Shown piece by piece: positions 18,911-28,241 of a DNA stretch of 34,788 nt. Positions within the stretch are counted from its first letter, which is position 1, and the number at the start of each line of letters is the position of its first letter. The stretch spans positions 1 to 34,788 of the forward strand of contig RFHH01000080.1 in NCBI GenBank assembly GCA_003696075.1, given 5' to 3'. Source of the stretch: Acidobacteriota bacterium. GTDB taxonomy: Bacteria > Acidobacteriota > Polarisedimenticolia > J045. The notes beneath the pieces were generated by a model. It was not told the DNA's origin, made no database searches, and saw nothing but the letters and a program-made list of their open reading frames with translations. Both the position numbers and the translations under genes were made by a program.

Positions 18911-21448
18911 TCACGCGTTCGGATGGCGGTCCCGCCGAATCTCCGCGCGGGGCCCGGTGTCGCCGGCAGGATGCGTCCGGTGCGCCAGGGCCTCCGCCAG
19001 CGACCGGCCGAGCTGCTCCTTCCCGAAGGGCTTGACGAGGATTCCGGAGACGCCGAGGGCCGCGGCGGTCTTTCCCTCGAGGCGGCGGCTGAACCCGGTG
19101 GTCAGCAGCACGGGGAGATCCGGCCGGATCGCGCGCAACTCGGCGGCCAGTCGGTCGCCCGGAAGATCCGGCATCGTCTCGTCGGTGACGACCGCGTCGA
19201 AACCGGCCGGATCGCGCCGGAACCGATCGAGCGCCGCGGGCCCGGAGGTCACGGGGACCGCTTCGTAGCCGAGCCGTTCGAGCATGCGCGCGGTCAGCCT
19301 CGCGAGCATCGGCTCGTCGTCCACGACCAGGATCCGTCCCCGCCCCCGCGCGGCGCTCCGAGGCGGGACCTCCTCCGGACCGGCTTCGCGGTCGGCAAGC
19401 GGGAGGTACACGGAGATGGTGGTCCCTTCACCCGGCCGGCTTTCGGCTTCGAGCGTTCCGCCGTAGGAGGACACGATTCCGTGCACCACCGCCAGGCCGA
19501 GACCGGTTCCCCGACCCGCGGGTTTGGTGGTGAAGAAGGGATCGAAGATACGGTCGAGCACCTCGGCCTCGATCCCGCCGCCGTCGTCGCTCACGGTCAG
19601 GAGCTCGTACCGGCCGGGGGCGACCCCGAGCCTCCCGGCCGCCTCGCCATCCAGCGTGACGCGGCGCAAGCCGATCTCGATCCGGCCGCCCCCGCTGCCG
19701 ATCGCGTCCTGGGCGTTGGCGGCCAGGTTCAGCAGGACCTGTTGCAGCCGCGTGGGGTCGGCCTCCACGACGGCCGGCTCGCCGTCCGAGACCACTTCCA
19801 CGGCGGTCGTCGCCGGCAGCGACGCCCGGAGGAACCGAACCGTTTCCTCGACGAGCGGCCGCAGCTCGGTCGGGCGCCGGTCTTCGGGCGCCGCCCGGCT
19901 GAAGGCGAGGATCTGCTCCACCAGACGGCGGCCCCTCCGCGCCGCGACCAGGATCTCGCCGGCGGCACGCGCCTCCTCGCCGCCTTCCGGCAGGGTGTCG
20001 CGGAGGAGTTCCGCATGGCCGAGGATCGCGGCGAGAACGTTGTTGAAATCATGGGCGATCCCTCCTGCGAAACGCCCGAGCGCCTCGATCTTCTCCGCCT
20101 GCCGCACCCGCCGCTCGAGGCGTTCCCGATGAGCGGCCTCTTCCCGGAGCGCCCGGTTCGCCTGCTCCAGGTCGGCGCTCCTGCGGCGCAGATCGGACAC
20201 GGTTCGCCGGAGGGTCTCCGCCATTTCCCGGAACTGCCCGACCAGGGTGCGCACCTCGCGCGTCCTCGCGGCGGGCCACTCCGGATGCCAAGGCCGATCG
20301 AGAGAGCGGGGAATCTCCCGGGCGAGCGCGGCCAGACCGGCGAGGGGGCGCGCCAGGGCTCTGCTGACCTTGAAGGCGAGTGCGAACGCCCCCGCGACCA
20401 GCACGAGCACGACCATCAGGCACACCCGCCCCACCGTGTGCACGCGGTCGCGGACCGCGGCCGCCGACGCCGCCACCTGTAGTCGCCACCCCGGAAAGCC
20501 TGGCAGTGCGATCTCGCGCACATAGGAAGCGTCCTGCCAGCGGAGCGGCGGCGGCCGGTGCACCGGCCGCGGGAGGAGCAGGTAGCGGCCTTTCGAAACT
20601 TCCCGCACCTCGCCCTCCGAACCGGCCGTTCCGAAGGGGCCGTTTCCCGCCGAGGCCACCTCCTCCCCCGCCGGACCGATCACCCGGAAGGGACCGGTGC
20701 CGGCCTCCTTGGCGAACCAGTCCCCGGACAGCGGCGGCCCTTCCGAATCCGGCGGCGCGTGACTCTCGAGCGCGGCGGCGATCCGCTCCGCCCTCTCGTC
20801 GAGCCGCTCCCACAGCTCCGACTCGATCGAGGCGCGTCCCACATGCAGGGCGACCGCCGCGGCCGCCAGCCCGGGCAGCAGTCCGCTCGCGGCCATGAGG
20901 TCGAAGAGCAGGTGGCGAACGGGTGACGGCGCGACCGGCAATCGCAGGCGGCGACACCAATCCACCGGAATGGCGTGAACGAGAAGGCCCGCCAGCGCCG
21001 CGTCGGCGAGGCCGTTGAGGCCGCGCGCGAGCGCGAGGAAAGCGGTCGCATCCGCCCCCAGTGCGAGATGCCAGCCATAGAGCACCGCGACCAGCGGCAC
21101 GCCGCCGGCGAGCCAGAACGCTCCGGCCGCGGCCAGCAGCGGAACTCCACGCTGCACGAGGAGCCCGACGGCGAGCGCCTCGGCGAAGCCGACGGCCAGC
21201 GGGCCGGGGTGGCCCCACACCCAGGACGAGGCGGCTCCGGAGAGGATCCCGGCCAGGACGCCCCATCGGGGTCCGAACAGCCGGATGGTGGCGAAAACGG
21301 CGATCGACCCGAAGCGGAAGTCGATCCCGAACGGGAGCGCGAGCGGAAACAGTCCTCCCGCGATCGCCGCGGCGAGGATCGCGGCGAGAACCGGCCGGCC
21401 CCGCGGTGGAACGGGGCCTTTCGACGGCAGCTCGGCCCTCCCGGACAT
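18911..21448 (-). CDS. Membrane hybrid histidine kinase with C-terminal receiver domain
   Basis: 845 residues. N-terminal membrane module (about 20-190) with six or more hydrophobic helices beginning [20 protein letters not shown], a pattern I have seen in front of other signalling domains but cannot name. An extracytoplasmic loop of about 150 residues follows, then a further helix near 345, a HAMP-like linker and coiled coil, a HisKA domain with His466 in GGIAHDFNN, an HATPase domain ([29 protein letters not shown]), and a receiver domain from about 710 with phospho-acceptor Asp756 in VVTDETMP and Lys in LVKPFG. It would sense an external or membrane signal and autophosphorylate, passing phosphate to its own receiver. 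The ATG at 21448 follows GGGAG. It lies 250 bp after the REC-kinase gene on the same strand, so it may belong to the same regulon. Confidence 0.9.
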
Positions 21449-21698: not shown

Positions 21699-22961
21699 TC
21701 AGGCGACGGGCTCAGCGGCGGGCTCCCCCTCGGGGGTGGCCGCTTCCGCGCCGGCGGCCTCGAGCGGGAGCCGGATCCGGAACCTCGTGCCCTGCCCCTC
21801 CACGCTGTCGAATCCGATCTCCCCGCCGTGCTGCTGGACCACGATCGCGTGCGCGAGCGCCAGCCCCTGTCCGGTCCCCTTCCCCACTTCCTTGGTCGTG
21901 AAGAAGGGATCGAACACCCGGTCGCGGATCTCCTCCGGGATCCCGCAACCGCTGTCCTCGACCTCGATCTCGACCGCTTGGTCCAGGAGGCGCGTGCGGA
22001 GAACGATGCGGCCTTTCGTCTCGGGTCGCTCTCCGATCTTGTCGCGGATGGCGTGGGCGGCATTGACGATGAGATTCAGCAGGACCTGGCTGATGTCGTT
22101 CCCGCGACAGGGAACGAGGGGAAGCCCATCGTGCAGCTCCAACTCCAGATCGGCGACGTACTTCCATTCGCTCCGCGAGACCACGGCCGTGGTGCGAACC
22201 AGCTCGTTGATGTCGACCTCTTCGCGCGACGCTCCGCCCGGATGTCCGAAGCGCTTCATCGCTTTGACGATCTCGGCCACCCGGTTCACCCCGTCGATCG
22301 ACTGCCGGATCGACTGGGGCACCTCCTCTTCGAGATAGGACAGCTCGATCTCATCGGCGCGCCGCGCGACCTCGGCGGCGTCGAGCCGCCCCTCCCGGGC
22401 GGCTCGGGCGACCGCGCCCGCGAAACCGACCAGGTCGCCGAAGCTCTCCTCGAGGAAGCGGAGGTTGTCGCCGATGAACTGGATCGGCGTGTTGATCTCG
22501 TGGGCGATGCCGGCGGCGAGCCGTCCGATTGCCTCGAGCTTGTGGACGTGCCGGAGCTGGGCCTCGACGCGCGCCTTCTCGCGCTCCGCCTCGCGGATGC
22601 GCAGCACCGCCCGCACCTTCGCCAGGAGGATTTCGTCCTCCACCGGCTTGGTGATGTAGTCGAAGGCCCCCAGGTCGAGGCCGGTGCTGATCCGGTCAGG
22701 GTCCCGGAATCTGGCCGTCACGAAGATGACGGGAATCTCCCGGGTGCGCTCGTCGGCTTGGAGGCGGCGAAGGACCTCGTAGCCATCCATCCCCGGCATC
22801 TGCACGTCGAGCAGGATGAGGTCGAACGGGTCGCGGGCCGCCAGCTCGAGGCACTCGGGTCCGCTCGACGCGAGGGTGACGTCGTAGTCGTCCTCAAGGA
22901 TCTGCTCCATCAGATCGAGATTGTCCGGGGTGTCGTCGACGACGAGGATCCTCGCTCTCAT
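21699..22961 (-). CDS. Receiver-histidine kinase (REC-HisKA-HATPase)
   Basis: 420 residues, no membrane segment. The receiver domain (1-122) has the acidic pair VVDD at 7-10, Asp52 in LLDVQMP and Lys105 in YITKPVED. A short coiled coil (123-142) leads to a dimerisation domain with His154 in GIAHEINTPIQF and an HATPase domain (LNLIVNAAHAI, EDSGCGIPEEI, GTGQGLALAHAIV). Such proteins take phosphate at the receiver, which then tunes the attached kinase. It sits four bases after the stop of the RsbT-like kinase, with AGGAG at the right distance in the end of that gene, so it is the last tightly linked member of the stressosome operon and a natural phosphate acceptor for the kinase encoded before it. 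Confidence 0.92.
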   Translation of the reverse strand: MRARILVVDDTPDNLDLMEQILEDDYDVTLASSGPECLELAARDPFDLILLDVQMPGMDGYEVLRRLQADERTREIPVIFVTARFRDPDRISTGLDLGAFDYITKPVEDEILLAKVRAVLRIREAEREKARVEAQLRHVHKLEAIGRLAAGIAHEINTPIQFIGDNLRFLEESFGDLVGFAGAVARAAREGRLDAAEVARRADEIELSYLEEEVPQSIRQSIDGVNRVAEIVKAMKRFGHPGGASREEVDINELVRTTAVVSRSEWKYVADLELELHDGLPLVPCRGNDISQVLLNLIVNAAHAIRDKIGERPETKGRIVLRTRLLDQAVEIEVEDSGCGIPEEIRDRVFDPFFTTKEVGKGTGQGLALAHAIVVQQHGGEIGFDSVEGQGTRFRIRLPLEAAGAEAATPEGEPAAEPVA

Positions 22962-22965
22962 GCCT

Positions 22966-24150
22966 TCACTCCTGCCCAGCGCCGGCCGGTTCCGGGGCGG
23001 CGGCCTGCGCGACCGCCCCTGGCGCGCACAGAGGCACCGTCACGGTGAATCGCGTCCCTCGTCCGACCTCGCTCGCGACGGAGACCTCCCCGCCCAGGAG
23101 CCGGACCATCTCGCGGACGATCGCCAGGCCGAGCCCGGTGCCCCCGGCCCGCCGCGCGTCGCCGCCGTCCACCTGGCGGAACGGCTCGAAGATCACCGGC
23201 AGGGCCTCCTCGGGGATCCCGGGGCCGGTGTCCTCCACCACGAAGCACGCCGTGCCGCGCTCGGCGTCCAGGCGGGCCTCGAGGGTGACCGAGCCGTCTT
23301 CGGTGAACTTGATCGCGTTGCCGAGGAGGTTGGTCAGGACCTGCTTGAGCTTCCCGCGGTCCGTCTCCAGCGCGGCGTCGGCGCCGCCACACACCTCGAA
23401 GCGGAGGCCCTTGTCGGACGCCAGCGGCGCGAGCAGGTCGGACACCTCCTGGAGAAGGTCCGAGAGACGGAATCGCTCCGCGTGGACCTCCATCCGGCCC
23501 GCCTCGATCTTCGACAGGTCGAGCAGGCTGTTGATCAGGTCGAGGAGCTGGCGGGCGTTCCGCTCGACGGTGTGCAGGTTGCGGAGCTGCTTCGGCGGAA
23601 GGACATCTCCCGCCTTGCGCAGGACGCGGGTGGTGAAGCCGATGATCGCGTTCATCGGCGTGCGGAGTTCGTGCGAAACGTTGGCGAGGAACTGCGACTT
23701 GAGCCTCGTCGCTCGCTCGAGCTCTTCGTTCCGCCGCTGCAACTCGGCGAACAGCTCCTCCCGGGTCGGTTCCGCGATCACCGCCTCCAGCGCGGCGGTG
23801 CCGGCGGCGGGCCGAGCCGGAAGCCGCACCGTGACGAGCGTCCCCTGGCGCAGCGGGGCGACACCTCCCCCGGCGCCGAGCACGGCCGCGACGCGGCGCG
23901 CTAGCGTGCCCGGAAGGGCGGGAACCGCGGTCAGTTGCAGCCGGGGGGGATCGGCGAGGAGGGCCACCTCCAGCCGCCCCCCGCCCTCCGAGGCCCCGAT
24001 GCAGCGCCCGATCTCCGACGCCGCCGCTGCGAGACGCGCCGCGGCGATCTCCCCGAGGCCGAGGAGGCCGGCCACGCGCTGCAGCTTGCGGCGGGCGGTG
24101 AGCACCGAGCGGTCCGCGTCCCCGATGCGGATCGTGCCGAGCGCGGTCAT
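22966..24150 (-). CDS. Histidine kinase with degenerate RsbT-like N-terminal domain
   Basis: 394 residues, soluble. The C-terminal part is a standard kinase: His160 in FLANVSHELRTPMNAI, N box LTNLLGNAIKF, EDTGPGIPEEA, GTGLGLAIVREMV. The first 112 residues (IRIGDADRSVLTARRKLQ, AGLLGLGEIAAARLA, then ASEIGRC) follow the layout of RsbT-type serine kinases, but the catalytic Asn of the SELARN motif is Cys50 in SEIGRC and the DxGPGI and Gly-rich lid motifs are gone. It therefore looks like a dead RsbT fold kept as a binding module. A linker with a coiled coil (129-150) joins the halves. The ATG overlaps the stop of the RsbT-phosphatase gene (ATGA). The likely role is to couple the stressosome to histidine phosphorylation, an inference from domain and position. 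Confidence 0.88.
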   Translation of the reverse strand: MTALGTIRIGDADRSVLTARRKLQRVAGLLGLGEIAAARLAAAASEIGRCIGASEGGGRLEVALLADPPRLQLTAVPALPGTLARRVAAVLGAGGGVAPLRQGTLVTVRLPARPAAGTAALEAVIAEPTREELFAELQRRNEELERATRLKSQFLANVSHELRTPMNAIIGFTTRVLRKAGDVLPPKQLRNLHTVERNARQLLDLINSLLDLSKIEAGRMEVHAERFRLSDLLQEVSDLLAPLASDKGLRFEVCGGADAALETDRGKLKQVLTNLLGNAIKFTEDGSVTLEARLDAERGTACFVVEDTGPGIPEEALPVIFEPFRQVDGGDARRAGGTGLGLAIVREMVRLLGGEVSVASEVGRGTRFTVTVPLCAPGAVAQAAAPEPAGAGQE

Positions 24151-25154
24151 CCCGAAATCCTCAGCGCGACACACGCGGCGTCGTCGGTGCCGCGCGCGCA
24201 GCGCTCCAACAGTTGCGCCGCGAGCACCGGTGCCGGCCCGGCGCCCAGCTCAGGGAGCGCCTTTCGGACGGCGCGATCGGCGAGGCCGTCGGTCCAGCAG
24301 ACGAGAGCGTCACCCGCCGCCACCGGCGCTTCGAACGCACGCGCCCTGGGCATCGTTCCCCCCAGCACCCCCGAGCGGCCGGTCAGCCGCTGCACCGAAG
24401 TGCCCACGACCGCCGTGACGGTGTTGCCCACGCCGGCATGGCGGACACGGCCGCGGGCCGCGTCGACGAGCGACACCCCGGCGGCGGCGCCCCGGCTCCC
24501 CCTGACGTGCACGTGAAGCCGATCCAACAGCGCCGCGGGATCGCTCCAATCCTCTCCCCGCAGCCGCCTCAGGAGCCGGCGGGCGAGGCGGTGCGCTTCC
24601 CGCCCGTGGCCGAGGACGTCGACGATCGCCACCCCCCAGCGCTCCCCTTCCTCGACGACGATGGCGGTATCGCCGCAGCGGCTGTCGTCCTGCAGAGGTT
24701 TCAGGGCGATGCCGCATGGCTGTTCGTCCGCGGAGGCGGAACGGTGGCACCAGCGCAGCGCCACGACGCGCGTCCCGGCGTCCGGCGAGGTGGCGATCGC
24801 CACGTCGTCCATGATCCGCACGACGGCCGGGAGCCCGAGGCCGAGCCCGCCACCGGTGCTGTAGCCGGGGCGGAGCGCCGCCTCCACGTCGGCGATGCCG
24901 GGCCCGCGGTCGCGGGCCACGACCGCGAGGCCGCGGCGTCCCGGCTCCCACACGCGCCGCAGGGCGACCTCCCCCCCGCCCCCGTAGCGCACGATGTTCG
25001 TCGCCAGCTCCGAGGTGGCGGTCGCGATCAGCGCCGCCGGAGCGCTGCCGAATCCCATCCGGCTCGCCAGCTCCCGGACGGCCTCGACGAGCGGGCCGAC
25101 GTCGCGCCGACTCCGAATGGCGTGCAGGCCGGTGAGCGAGTCGGTCCCGAGCAC
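24147..25154 (-). CDS. RsbT-type serine kinase fused to an RsbX/SpoIIE-type PP2C phosphatase
   Basis: 335 residues. Residues 1-135 form an intact RsbT-like GHKL kinase: ATSELATNIVRYGGGG with Asn53, RDRGPGIADV with Asp82, and STGGGLGLGLPAVVRIMDD. RsbT phosphorylates RsbS and RsbR and is released from the stressosome on stress. Residues about 137-335 are a PP2C-like phosphatase of the RsbX type: metal-ligand Asp162 in CGDTAIV, Asp179 in VDVLGHGREA, Asp289 in WTDGLADR and DDAA at 324-327. Kinase and reset phosphatase would thus be one chain. The GTG at 25154 is chosen because it starts four bases after the RsbS stop and just ahead of the first strand; the ribosome site is weak. The stop overlaps the next kinase gene (ATGA). 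Confidence 0.87.
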   Translation of the reverse strand: MLGTDSLTGLHAIRSRRDVGPLVEAVRELASRMGFGSAPAALIATATSELATNIVRYGGGGEVALRRVWEPGRRGLAVVARDRGPGIADVEAALRPGYSTGGGLGLGLPAVVRIMDDVAIATSPDAGTRVVALRWCHRSASADEQPCGIALKPLQDDSRCGDTAIVVEEGERWGVAIVDVLGHGREAHRLARRLLRRLRGEDWSDPAALLDRLHVHVRGSRGAAAGVSLVDAARGRVRHAGVGNTVTAVVGTSVQRLTGRSGVLGGTMPRARAFEAPVAAGDALVCWTDGLADRAVRKALPELGAGPAPVLAAQLLERCARGTDDAACVALRISG

Positions 25155-25158
25155 CGTT

Positions 25159-25527
25159 TCATCCGAGGCGGGCGAGCGCGTCGTCCACGGTGCGGGCCGT
25201 GACCGCGTCGTCCGGCGTGAAGCCCAGCGCGGCGAGGGCGGCGGCCACGCCGGGACGCATCGCGGCGATACCGACACGCGCGCCCAAGAGCCGCGCCATT
25301 CGCGCGATCGCCGCCACCGCACCGGCCTGGACGCTGTCGGCCGCCGTCACCGCCGAAAGATCGAACACGAGCGCGCGGGCCCGCGTCGCCGACACGGCGG
25401 CGAGGACGGCGTCGCGAAGGGCGTCGAGTCCCGCGCGGTCGAGCGCGTCGGGAACCGGAACGACGAGCCGGCGGCCGAGGCGCTGCATCGCGAACGGCGC
25501 GCCGCCGGCGATCTCACTTCCCCTCAC
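25159..25527 (-). CDS. rsbS: RsbS-type STAS-domain stressosome scaffold protein
   Basis: 122 residues, a single STAS domain. Aligned by eye with RsbS: RRLVVPVPDALD at the first strands, ALVFDLSAVTAADSVQAG with Ser65 at the phosphorylated Ser position of RsbS (the residue RsbT modifies), then ARLLGARVGIAAMRPGVAAALAALGF. It would form the core of the stressosome with RsbR and hold RsbT. The GTG at 25527 overlaps the end of the RsbR gene by 14 bases and has a GAGG nine bases upstream; an in-frame ATG at 25488 would cut into the first strand region and has no ribosome site. Some stressosome residues are more diverged than in the neighbouring RsbR. Confidence 0.82.
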   Translation of the reverse strand: MRGSEIAGGAPFAMQRLGRRLVVPVPDALDRAGLDALRDAVLAAVSATRARALVFDLSAVTAADSVQAGAVAAIARMARLLGARVGIAAMRPGVAAALAALGFTPDDAVTARTVDDALARLG

Positions 25528-25924
25528 GGGGGCGAACCTCGAGGCCGAGCCGGCCGAAGGCGGTCTCGAGCGCGGCCGCCATCGTCGCAACGGTCTTGAC
25601 CTCTCCCAAATCGATGCCCAGGTGGACCATCGTCTGGGCGACCGCGGGCGAGATCCCCGAGACGATGCACTCGCAACCCATCAGCTGCGTCGCCCGGGTG
25701 ATCTGGATGACGTGGTTGGCCACGGCGGTGTCCATCGCCGTCACGCCGATGATGTCGAGAATGATGACGCGGGCCTGCGTTCTCTGGATCATCGACAGCA
25801 TCGAATCCATCAGCTCTTGAGCCCGCGCCGAGTCGAGAATCCCGAAGACCGACACCATCAGGATCCCGTCCCAGACGACGCTCACCGGCACGCGATCGGT
25901 TCCGACGCTCTCGGAGACTTGCAT
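25514..25924 (-). CDS. RsbR-type STAS protein lacking an N-terminal sensor domain
   Basis: 136 residues. Strong match by eye to the C-terminal STAS domain of RsbR proteins: VIILDIIGVTAMDTAVANHV with Thr66 in DT, IVSGISPAVAQTMVHLGID with Thr98 in AQT, both at positions of conserved stressosome threonines phosphorylated in Bacillus RsbR. Classical RsbR proteins carry a globin-like N-terminal sensor; here only about 15 residues precede the STAS fold, so sensing must come from elsewhere or from a paralogue. The ATG at 25924 has an excellent GGGAGGGGAG ribosome site. First gene of the RsbR-RsbS-RsbT/X-kinase-kinase operon. Confidence 0.88.
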   Translation of the reverse strand: MQVSESVGTDRVPVSVVWDGILMVSVFGILDSARAQELMDSMLSMIQRTQARVIILDIIGVTAMDTAVANHVIQITRATQLMGCECIVSGISPAVAQTMVHLGIDLGEVKTVATMAAALETAFGRLGLEVRPREGK

Positions 25925-26033: not shown

Positions 26034-28241
26034 CTATCGGCCGTCTCCGGCGCCGCTTGACCTCGCCGCCGAGCCCCGATCGGGGTGAAGCTGGACGACC
26101 GAGCACAGCGCCCGCTCGACGATCCGGTCGCTGACCGAGCCGCGGACGAGCCGCCGCAGCGGGGGCTCGTCTTCGGAAGCGAGGATCAGCAGATCGGCGC
26201 CGGCGGTCGCGTGGACGACCGCCTCCACCGGATCGGCCCCCGTGAGGATCTCCGCATCGGCCGGAGCGCCGCACTCCGCGACGAGCCTCCGGTGGAAGCG
26301 CACGACCTCCTCGCGCCGCGCCGCGGGTGCGCCCGGCTCCAGCACGTCCACGAAGGTCAAGCGCCCCCCGTGCGCGCGGGCGAGCGCCACGGCCACCCTG
26401 AGCAGCTCTCCCTCGTGCGGTCCGGGACGCGCGAGCACCAGGATGCGCTGGTAGACGCGCACCCCGGCGTCGCGGAACGAGCCGACCGCCGCCGGGAGAT
26501 GGTGGAGGATCCACAGCAGGGGCCGTCCGACGAAGCTCGCGTACCGCCGCCGCCGGTGGCCGACGATGACCCACTCGCAGTGGGCGGCCGCGGCCTGGGC
26601 GTACAGCGCGCGCCGCGCATCGTGCGTGACGACGACGACGAACGCAGCGTCCACGCCGAGCCGGCCCGCGATGGCGAGCACGCGGCGTCGCACCGCCGCG
26701 ATCCGATCGTCCTCCCCGGTCCCGCCGGCCAGCTCGGTCTGGCCGGGAATCTCGCGCAGGTAGAGGACGTCGATTCGCGATTCCGGCGAGGGCCGCAGCG
26801 CGGCGCCGATCTCGAAGAGCGCCTCGGGAGACCGTTCCTTGCCGAACAGCGCCACCACCACCCGGGCCTCCGGAATCGGGGCCTCCGCGGCGGCTCCCGG
26901 CGGGGCCTCCACGAGGTCGGTGCGGCGGCCGAGGTTCTGGAGGAGCCCGCGCCGGGAGACGCGCGAGCGGCCGTAGGCCAGATGCCACGCCGCCGCGACG
27001 CCGGTGAACAGCGCGATCCCCGCCAGGGCGTCGGCTCCGAGAGCGACCAGCAACGCCATTCCCCCGAGGATCCCGGCCAGTGGCGGGAGGGGATAGAGCG
27101 GGACGCGGTACGTGGGGCGGTACCAGGCGGCGCCGGCTTCCCGGAAGACGATCAGCGAGAGATTTTCGAGGCAGAAGACGAGGATCTGGAATCCCGACGC
27201 GAGCTTTGCGAGCGCCACCACGTCGAGCGCCAGGATGGCGAACAGCATGAAGCCCGCGCAGGCGAGGATCGACGCCACCGGCGTCAGCAGGCGCGGGTCG
27301 ACGGTGCCCAACCGGCCCGGAAGCAGTCCGTCGCGCGCCATCGCGAACGGAAAGCGCGACGCCGCGAGCAGCGTCGCGTTCGCCTCGGATCCGAGCGCCA
27401 GCACCGCCACGGCCGACAGCGCCCACCGCAACGGCACCCCGCCGATCGCGGCGCCGAGCGTGGCGATCGGGGCCGCATCGTGCGCCAGTTCCGCGAGCGG
27501 GATCCTCCCGGCGAGAACGAACGCCACCGCGGCATACAGCGTCCCCATCCCCACCAGCGAGAGAAGGATGCCCCTCGGGATCGTCCTCCCCGGATCCCTC
27601 ACTTCCTCGGCGACGGCGGCGATCTTCGTGACCCCCGCGTAGGAGGCGAAGACGAAGGCGGCGGCGCCGGCGAGGCCGGAAAAGCCGGAAGGCGTTTGGG
27701 GCACGAGGAAATCGCGGCGAATGCCGGGCAGCGCCGCGACCGCGGCCGCGGCCAGGGTGCCGACGGTGATCGCGACGAGCGGCTTCTGGAGCCGGCCCAC
27801 ACGGCGAACGCCGAGCACGTTGAGCGCCGTCACCCCGGCCAGGATGCCCAGGGCGAGGGCGGTCTCGGCGCGGGCCGCGGAACCGTGCGCGCCGGGAGCC
27901 GACGCCAGGACGTACGCCCCCAGACCCGCCAGGGCGAAGCAGCCCTTGAGCAGCAGGGAGAGAGCGGCGCCGATCCCCGAGACGGCCCCCGCGAACGGAC
28001 CGAGGCTCCTCTCGATGAACAGGTAGGTGCCCCCCGAGGAGGGCATGGCGGTGGCCAGCTCCGCCTTGGCGAGGGCCGCCGGGAGAACGAGAACCCCGGC
28101 CAGGAGGTAGGCCAGCCACAAAGACGGTCCCGTCAGCGCGGAGGCGGGCCCGGGGAGGACGAACAGTCCGCCCCCGGCCATGGCGCCGACGCTGATCGCG
28201 ACGACGCTTCTCAGGCCGAGGGAACGGTCGAGCCGCTTCAC
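26034..28241 (-). CDS. APC-family amino acid permease fused to two universal stress protein domains
   Basis: 735 residues. Residues 1-440 form a 12-helix amino acid/polyamine permease: VGAMAGGGLFVLPG at 18-31 (the APC substrate loop), PSSGGTYLF at 67-75, VFASYAGVTKIAAVAEEVRD near 230, and EANATLLAASRFPFAMARDG. From about 457 two universal stress protein domains follow: EARVVVALFGKERSPEAL to about 590 and VYQRILVLARPGPHEGELL to about 720, ending RGSVSDRIVERALCSVVQLHP split here across the usual G-S nucleotide loop. Such permease-USP fusions are known in bacteria and archaea; the USP part likely binds nucleotide and regulates transport. The GTG at 28241 overlaps the stop of the spermidine-synthase-like gene (GTGA), suggesting the two act on related compounds. 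The substrate is not readable. Confidence 0.9.
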   Translation of the reverse strand: MKRLDRSLGLRSVVAISVGAMAGGGLFVLPGPASALTGPSLWLAYLLAGVLVLPAALAKAELATAMPSSGGTYLFIERSLGPFAGAVSGIGAALSLLLKGCFALAGLGAYVLASAPGAHGSAARAETALALGILAGVTALNVLGVRRVGRLQKPLVAITVGTLAAAAVAALPGIRRDFLVPQTPSGFSGLAGAAAFVFASYAGVTKIAAVAEEVRDPGRTIPRGILLSLVGMGTLYAAVAFVLAGRIPLAELAHDAAPIATLGAAIGGVPLRWALSAVAVLALGSEANATLLAASRFPFAMARDGLLPGRLGTVDPRLLTPVASILACAGFMLFAILALDVVALAKLASGFQILVFCLENLSLIVFREAGAAWYRPTYRVPLYPLPPLAGILGGMALLVALGADALAGIALFTGVAAAWHLAYGRSRVSRRGLLQNLGRRTDLVEAPPGAAAEAPIPEARVVVALFGKERSPEALFEIGAALRPSPESRIDVLYLREIPGQTELAGGTGEDDRIAAVRRRVLAIAGRLGVDAAFVVVVTHDARRALYAQAAAAHCEWVIVGHRRRRYASFVGRPLLWILHHLPAAVGSFRDAGVRVYQRILVLARPGPHEGELLRVAVALARAHGGRLTFVDVLEPGAPAARREEVVRFHRRLVAECGAPADAEILTGADPVEAVVHATAGADLLILASEDEPPLRRLVRGSVSDRIVERALCSVVQLHPDRGSAARSSGAGDGR

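Follow-up and report, generated by a model that had tools for sequence, protein, structure and literature searches.

A putative stressosome module of an Acidobacteriota bacterium with RsbT and RsbX in one protein and a degenerate RsbT-like domain on its histidine kinase

We analyzed a 34,788-nucleotide stretch of DNA from an Acidobacteriota bacterium (GenBank assembly GCA_003696075.1, contig RFHH01000080.1), referred to here as the window. Five closely packed open reading frames (ORFs) lie on its minus strand from position 25924 to 21699, in the order RsbR-STAS, RsbS, RsbT-RsbX, HK1, and REC-HK2. On balance, we consider it somewhat probable that they constitute a minimal RSTX-type stressosome module (RsbR, RsbS, RsbT, and RsbX) wired to a pair of histidine kinases. 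The fusion of RsbT to RsbX is real and recurrent, and it is a variation on known systems rather than a new kind. The most interesting part is the N-terminal domain of HK1, here called HK1N, which resembles RsbT; the original prediction, made from the DNA alone, overlooked both this domain and the absence of a sensor domain from RsbR.

Results

Five adjacent genes encode RSTX components and two histidine kinases

The features of the operon, with the evidence for each, are as follows.

25514..25924, minus strand: RsbR-type STAS protein, 136 amino acids (aa) (PF01740, PDB match, aligned sites)
25159..25527, minus strand: RsbS-type STAS protein, 122 aa from GTG or 109 aa from ATG (STAS domain, PDB match)
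24147..25154, minus strand: RsbT-RsbX fusion, 335 aa (HATPase_c_2 and SpoIIE matches, structure model, Foldseek)
22966..24150, minus strand: HK1, soluble histidine kinase of 394 aa with a predicted N-terminal pseudo-RsbT domain (HisKA and HATPase_c)
23800..24150, minus strand: HK1N, degenerate RsbT/RsbW-fold domain of HK1 (hhalign, structure model, Foldseek)
21699..22961, minus strand: HK2, soluble REC-HisKA-HATPase_c protein of 420 aa (REC and HATPase_c matches)

ORFs and domain matches confirmed the predicted order of five minus-strand genes that overlap or are separated by four bases. The fusion starts at GTG 25154, 4 bases past the RsbS stop; the HK1 ATG at 24150 overlaps the stop of the fusion (ATGA); and the HK2 ATG at 22961 lies 4 bases past the HK1 stop. 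An alternative GTG start of RsbS at 25527 overlaps RsbR. A purine-rich GGAGGGGAG is located directly 5' of the RsbR ATG, and a scan for promoters and terminators found none.

We recognized an RSTX module by two STAS proteins, one of the RsbR type and one of the RsbS type, that carry phosphoacceptor Ser/Thr residues, by an RsbT with its N-box Asn and DxGxG motif, and by the metal-binding Asp residues of an RsbX PP2C phosphatase; the operon has all of these. It lacks a further hallmark of such modules, an N-terminal sensor domain on RsbR. RsbR contains a STAS domain (PF01740, E 2.4e-15), its best PDB sequence match is RsbR of Vibrio vulnificus (7o0i, E 2.9e-40), and an alignment of relatives places its putative phosphosites at Ser32 and Thr66. 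No N-terminal sensor domain was found in this protein, which consists of STAS only, and a genome-wide STAS search found no other RsbR. Truncation by a frameshift was rejected as an explanation: the sequence upstream of RsbR is intergenic up to the end of the neighboring gene. With a sensor-less RsbR in the module, the input may enter via the histidine kinases.

RsbS likewise has a STAS domain (E 4.5e-10) and matches a Listeria-type RsbS best in the PDB (6qcm, E 3.7e-10). Its phosphoacceptor, Ser52 when counted from ATG 25488, aligns with Ser56 of Listeria RsbS. The serine named Ser65 in the original prediction is therefore present, and that number holds from GTG 25527. The phosphoacceptor Ser is replaced in RsbS at nine other loci, namely, L103, L106, L107, and L120, where T and X are fused, and L101, L102, L158, L105, and L112. 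The RsbR sites are kept at these same loci, and RsbS of the window keeps its Ser.

At the end of the operon, HK2 matched REC (E 8e-29), HATPase_c (E 1e-25), and HisKA, with the phosphoacceptor Asp, the His, and the G boxes present.

HK1 begins with a degenerate RsbT-like domain

HK1 matched HisKA (E 4e-20) and HATPase_c (E 1.5e-32), and its SHELRTP motif and N, G1, and G2 boxes are all present. HK1N comprises the first ~120 residues. An alignment of HK1 with 16 relatives provided 17 members, none of which matched a Pfam family in this region. Using hhalign, we found that HK1N matched an RsbT profile at 98.2% (E 3e-14, 111 columns) and a profile of T3, the RsbT-like domain described below, at 98.4%, while the RsbX and RsbS control profiles remained below 1%. 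The AlphaFold2 (AF2) model of HK1N had a predicted local distance difference test score (pLDDT) of 88.7 and a predicted template modeling score (pTM) of 0.80, and its top Foldseek match was RsbW (6m37, E 6e-4, prob 1.0), followed by UsfX and SpoIIAB. The RsbT/RsbW fold was found by both routes. An aligned N-box Asn and a DxGxG motif were absent from 17 of 17 members; as judged from these alignments, HK1N is a pseudo-kinase RsbT domain whose ATP site is gone. RsbU_N gave no match at E 1 in HK1 or in the 17 HK1N members.

A single HK1N domain was found in the whole source genome. Beyond it, the gene that follows X codes for a protein with HK1N at its N terminus at 18 RSTX loci from nine phyla (Thermodesulfobacteriota, Cyanobacteriota, Myxococcota, Acidobacteriota, Nitrospirota, Fibrobacterota, Actinomycetota, Pseudomonadota, and Atribacterota). 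In three cyanobacteria, HK1N sits on an RsbU-like PP2C phosphatase and not on a histidine kinase. At a further 49 of 77 loci, a sample skewed to Oxalobacteraceae and Bradyrhizobium, the place of HK1N is taken by T3, an RsbT-like domain that bears ATP-site motifs and looks ATP competent. Since HK1N is kept while the output is swapped between kinase and PP2C, it looks like a docking or input module. Based on its fold and synteny, we propose that HK1N is a docking domain that would bind the stressosome and let it gate HK1. More tentatively, HK1N could be a widespread adaptor, i.e., a portable RsbT paralogue that has lost catalysis and links RSTX stressosomes to effectors by occupying the RsbT site on a phospho-switched STAS lattice.

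The N terminus of the Vibrio D1 kinase may be a diverged member of HK1N; the match was weak (hhalign 41%, P 2.7e-4), with a score of 5.7 bits that was narrowly above those of all 1000 shuffles. In Vibrio sp. THAF64 (L214, 10776-13955), the D1 kinase encoded after rsbRSTX starts with a weakly HK1N-like segment that ends in a similar linker motif, SEKTRDDLMHELQIKNREL.

The fused protein carries intact RsbT and RsbX domains

As predicted, RsbT and a PP2C phosphatase are encoded in one protein. The ORF is in frame throughout, with an RsbT kinase domain at residues ~10-137, a linker of ~10 residues, and an RsbX-type PP2C at ~147-335, and it matched HATPase_c_2 (E 1.7e-12) and SpoIIE PP2C (E 3.5e-11). 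In an alignment of seven fusions, Asn53, Asp82, Gly84, and Gly86 of the kinase half and Asp162, Asp179, Asp289, Asp324, and Asp325 of the phosphatase half are invariant. The AF2 model had a pLDDT of 84.5, with low confidence in the linker at 138-144; its best Foldseek matches were Moorella 3zt9, RsbX 3w40, and SpoIIAB. Sequence matches in the PDB were the Moorella stressosome phosphatase, RsbX, and SpoIIAB.

In-frame T-X fusions in operons without another RsbT were also found in a Myxococcales metagenome-assembled genome (MAG; L103), two Acidobacteriota MAGs (L106 and L107), an Acidimicrobiia MAG (L120), and two Synechococcaceae (L111 and L112). The order R-S-TX-[HK1N effector] is common to the window, L103, L106/L107, and L120. 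Because it recurs in such distant genomes, we conclude that this order is not due to chance. Gene-order conservation, which the original prediction had put forward as a check, was thus borne out in Myxococcota, another Acidobacteriota genus, and the Acidimicrobiia MAG, but not within the family. Only 1 of 11 other family genomes (G016) has a stressosome module, and in that genome T, T2-X, and T3-HK are separate genes.

Here T2-X denotes an RsbT-like domain joined to a PP2C, an arrangement seen in many R-S-T operons of the phylum and beyond, where it is followed by a T3-histidine kinase. A module of this type, R-S-T-[T2-X]-[T3-HK]-[REC-HK], is present on plasmid MP1 of Deinococcus radiodurans (L216), which is amenable to genetics; the annotation there names only STAS proteins, anti-sigma regulatory factors, and ATP-binding proteins. 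A related module occurs on the Aeromonas dhakensis plasmid NZ_CP121799 (L215), in which the R, S, and T-X frames look frameshifted.

The operon of the window has no separate RsbT, and its fusion could in principle descend from T2-X, the true RsbT having been lost. The RsbT half taken alone is compatible with such an origin, as RsbT-domain trees did not reject a clade of T2 plus the window (approximately unbiased [AU] test, p 0.37 and 0.59). Nevertheless, we regard this descent as improbable. In the first domain tree, the RsbT half fell outside T2; it scored 138 bits with an RsbT profile from which the window sequence had been left out, compared with 103 bits for the T2 profile, and it keeps the RsbT lid and a terminal KW-like motif. 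The X half was placed away from T2-X, in an 18-row clade (support 100/97) made up only of single-domain or T-fused RsbX of HK1N-type operons and the Synechococcaceae fusions, although the AU test against its T2-X placement gave p 0.10. A tree of concatenated T and X agreed with the placement of the X half (99/99). From the RsbT profile score and these two trees, we read the fusion as RsbT joined to RsbX. The tree suggests that T-X fusions were gained at least 3 times; a single origin of all of them was not rejected (AU p 0.13 and 0.07). An assembly or sequencing artifact is very improbable: the genome is a draft in 231 contigs, but several genomes, among them those of Synechococcus sp. CS-1328 and Vulcanococcus, independently contain in-frame fusions.

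The fusion is the only RsbT/RsbW-type match in the genome

The draft assembly amounts to 3.29 Mb and is 98.56% complete. The only RsbT/RsbW-type match to HATPase_c_2 (PF13581) in the whole genome is the fusion. Other HATPase_c_2 matches were weaker, and the open frames that contain them are 455-1365 aa long, as histidine kinases would be. An RsbW-type anti-sigma kinase was therefore not detected genome-wide with PF13581, so a sigma cascade would have no RsbW that we could detect. By synteny, the module is coupled to histidine kinases, as the original prediction had it. Three STAS domains were found genome-wide: those of RsbR and RsbS and one in an orphan RsbV/SpoIIAA-like protein (G000:C54:40905-41219, L011), which is present though no RsbW-type kinase was found. 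Six SpoIIE-type PP2C domains, five of them outside the fusion, and 19 sigma-70 region 2 matches were also detected.

Two neighbors of the module were noted. On the same strand, 5' of it, 26034-28119 appears to encode an amino acid permease of the APC type with universal-stress-protein-like C-terminal domains. About 250 bases beyond its other end, 18911-21446 encodes a separate membrane hybrid histidine kinase (HAMP-HisKA-HATPase-REC).

Discussion

From the genes, residues, fold, and synteny described above, we propose the following interactions and activities. By homology, RsbR-STAS and RsbS would form a STAS scaffold bound by the RsbT half of the fusion. The RsbT half would phosphorylate Ser32 and Thr66 of RsbR and Ser52 of RsbS, and phosphorylation would shift RsbT-X on the STAS pair. 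The RsbX half, held on its short linker, would strip off those phosphates. With both activities on one chain, signal and reset would be fixed at 1:1 and reach one and the same place, which would make the switch transient and self-limiting. HK1N may dock on the STAS surface at the place of RsbT, or it may pair with the RsbT half; departure or movement of RsbT would then alter the contact made by HK1N and gate HK1 through the coiled-coil linker behind this domain. From HK1, phosphate would pass to the HK2 REC domain and then to regulators elsewhere. A sigma-factor cascade would not be required.

Several lines of evidence lead us to this model of a stressosome wired to histidine kinases. They include the gene order, the catalytic residues, and the presence of a single RsbT/RsbW-type kinase and a single HK1N in the genome. 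HK1N precedes the effector at 18 loci and has been swapped onto PP2C, as expected of a docking module, and its RsbT homology and fold were obtained by two methods. The X half of the window groups with X of HK1N operons, and at 49 further loci the downstream kinase bears a related RsbT-like domain. Published work fits as well: RsbT switches RsbU on by bringing order to a coiled-coil linker, and the authors of that study propose that this mechanism extends to histidine kinases (PMC12143880); RSTX modules with HisKA/REC outputs have been described in which most effectors lack RsbU_N, their coupling being left open (PMC9237108).

Other observations weigh against the model. RsbR has no sensor to supply an input, the proteins of the window have long branches in the trees, which is compatible with changed or relaxed function, and the module is patchy, with few family members keeping it. 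These same observations would fit a module that is decaying or repurposed, constitutive or vestigial after loss of the RsbR sensor. We consider such decay unlikely given five intact ORFs, every catalytic motif kept, and tight spacing preserved. The orphan RsbV-like protein and the five SpoIIE-type phosphatase domains elsewhere in the genome also count against the model; with the 19 sigma-70 region 2 matches, they could point to a classical sigma-factor cascade, encoded elsewhere, as the true output. This is an improbable alternative, as no RsbW/SpoIIAB-type anti-sigma kinase other than the fusion matched PF13581. Finally, HK1N could have a purely dimerizing role. Control of HK1 by direct Ser/Thr phosphorylation from RsbT-X, the route suggested for Vibrio D1 (Heinz et al.), would make HK1N a mere relic of dimerization or substrate recognition. 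Of these alternatives, direct phosphorylation is slightly less unlikely than decay. HK1N keeps the RsbT/RsbW fold and stays when the effector is a PP2C, which favors docking over a kinase-substrate relation.

That RsbRST modules lie beside two-component genes in other bacteria, as stated in the original prediction, agrees with the published RSTX modules (PMC9237108). In rsbRSTX-D1-D2 of V. vulnificus and others, RsbR, RsbS, RsbT, and RsbX directly precede HisKA/REC proteins, and as in the window there is no RsbU or SigB; the RsbR STAS of the window is closest to V. vulnificus RsbR. The window differs from the Vibrio modules in its fused T and X, its sensor-less RsbR, and the recognized pseudo-RsbT domain on the effector, of which Vibrio D1 gave only the weak match described above. 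The R-S-T-[HATPase-RsbX]-[HATPase-HK] modules of D. radiodurans plasmid MP1, Janthinobacterium, Bradyrhizobium, and G016 share the logic of an RsbT-like domain on a histidine kinase. Unlike the window, they have a separate RsbT, the distinct T2-X lineage, and T3 with ATP-site motifs. Compared with the Bacillus/Listeria stressosome (RsbRST-UVW-SigB-X), the window has homologues of RsbR-STAS, RsbS, RsbT, and RsbX with phosphosites, but no RsbU, RsbW, or SigB cascade, a histidine kinase as effector, and no RsbR sensor.

The claim that forward and reset activities share a chain holds as far as the presence of both domains is concerned, but the arrangement has precedents. SypE of Vibrio fischeri and HsbR/CrsR each unite a kinase with a PP2C phosphatase and are reported to determine whether a STAS antagonist is phosphorylated. 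Rv1364c, which combines RsbU- and RsbW-like domains, is a precedent in structure. All three, like the fusion, combine an RsbW-like kinase with a PP2C phosphatase; in contrast to it, they carry REC or other domains and act on single-domain SpoIIAA-like antagonists rather than an RsbR-RsbS pair. Neither an RsbT-RsbX fusion nor an RsbT-like domain on histidine kinases was found in the literature searched; the Pane-Farre reviews of 2005 and 2017 lie outside its scope and could mention either.

The recurrent RsbT-RsbX fusion would represent a one-chain, fixed-ratio switch-and-reset enzyme, and assays should be simpler with it than with RsbT and RsbX as two proteins. The route from the stressosome to two-component systems in SigB-less bacteria is unresolved in the literature, and HK1N makes this question directly testable. 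It also suggests a way in which such complexes are connected to histidine kinases.

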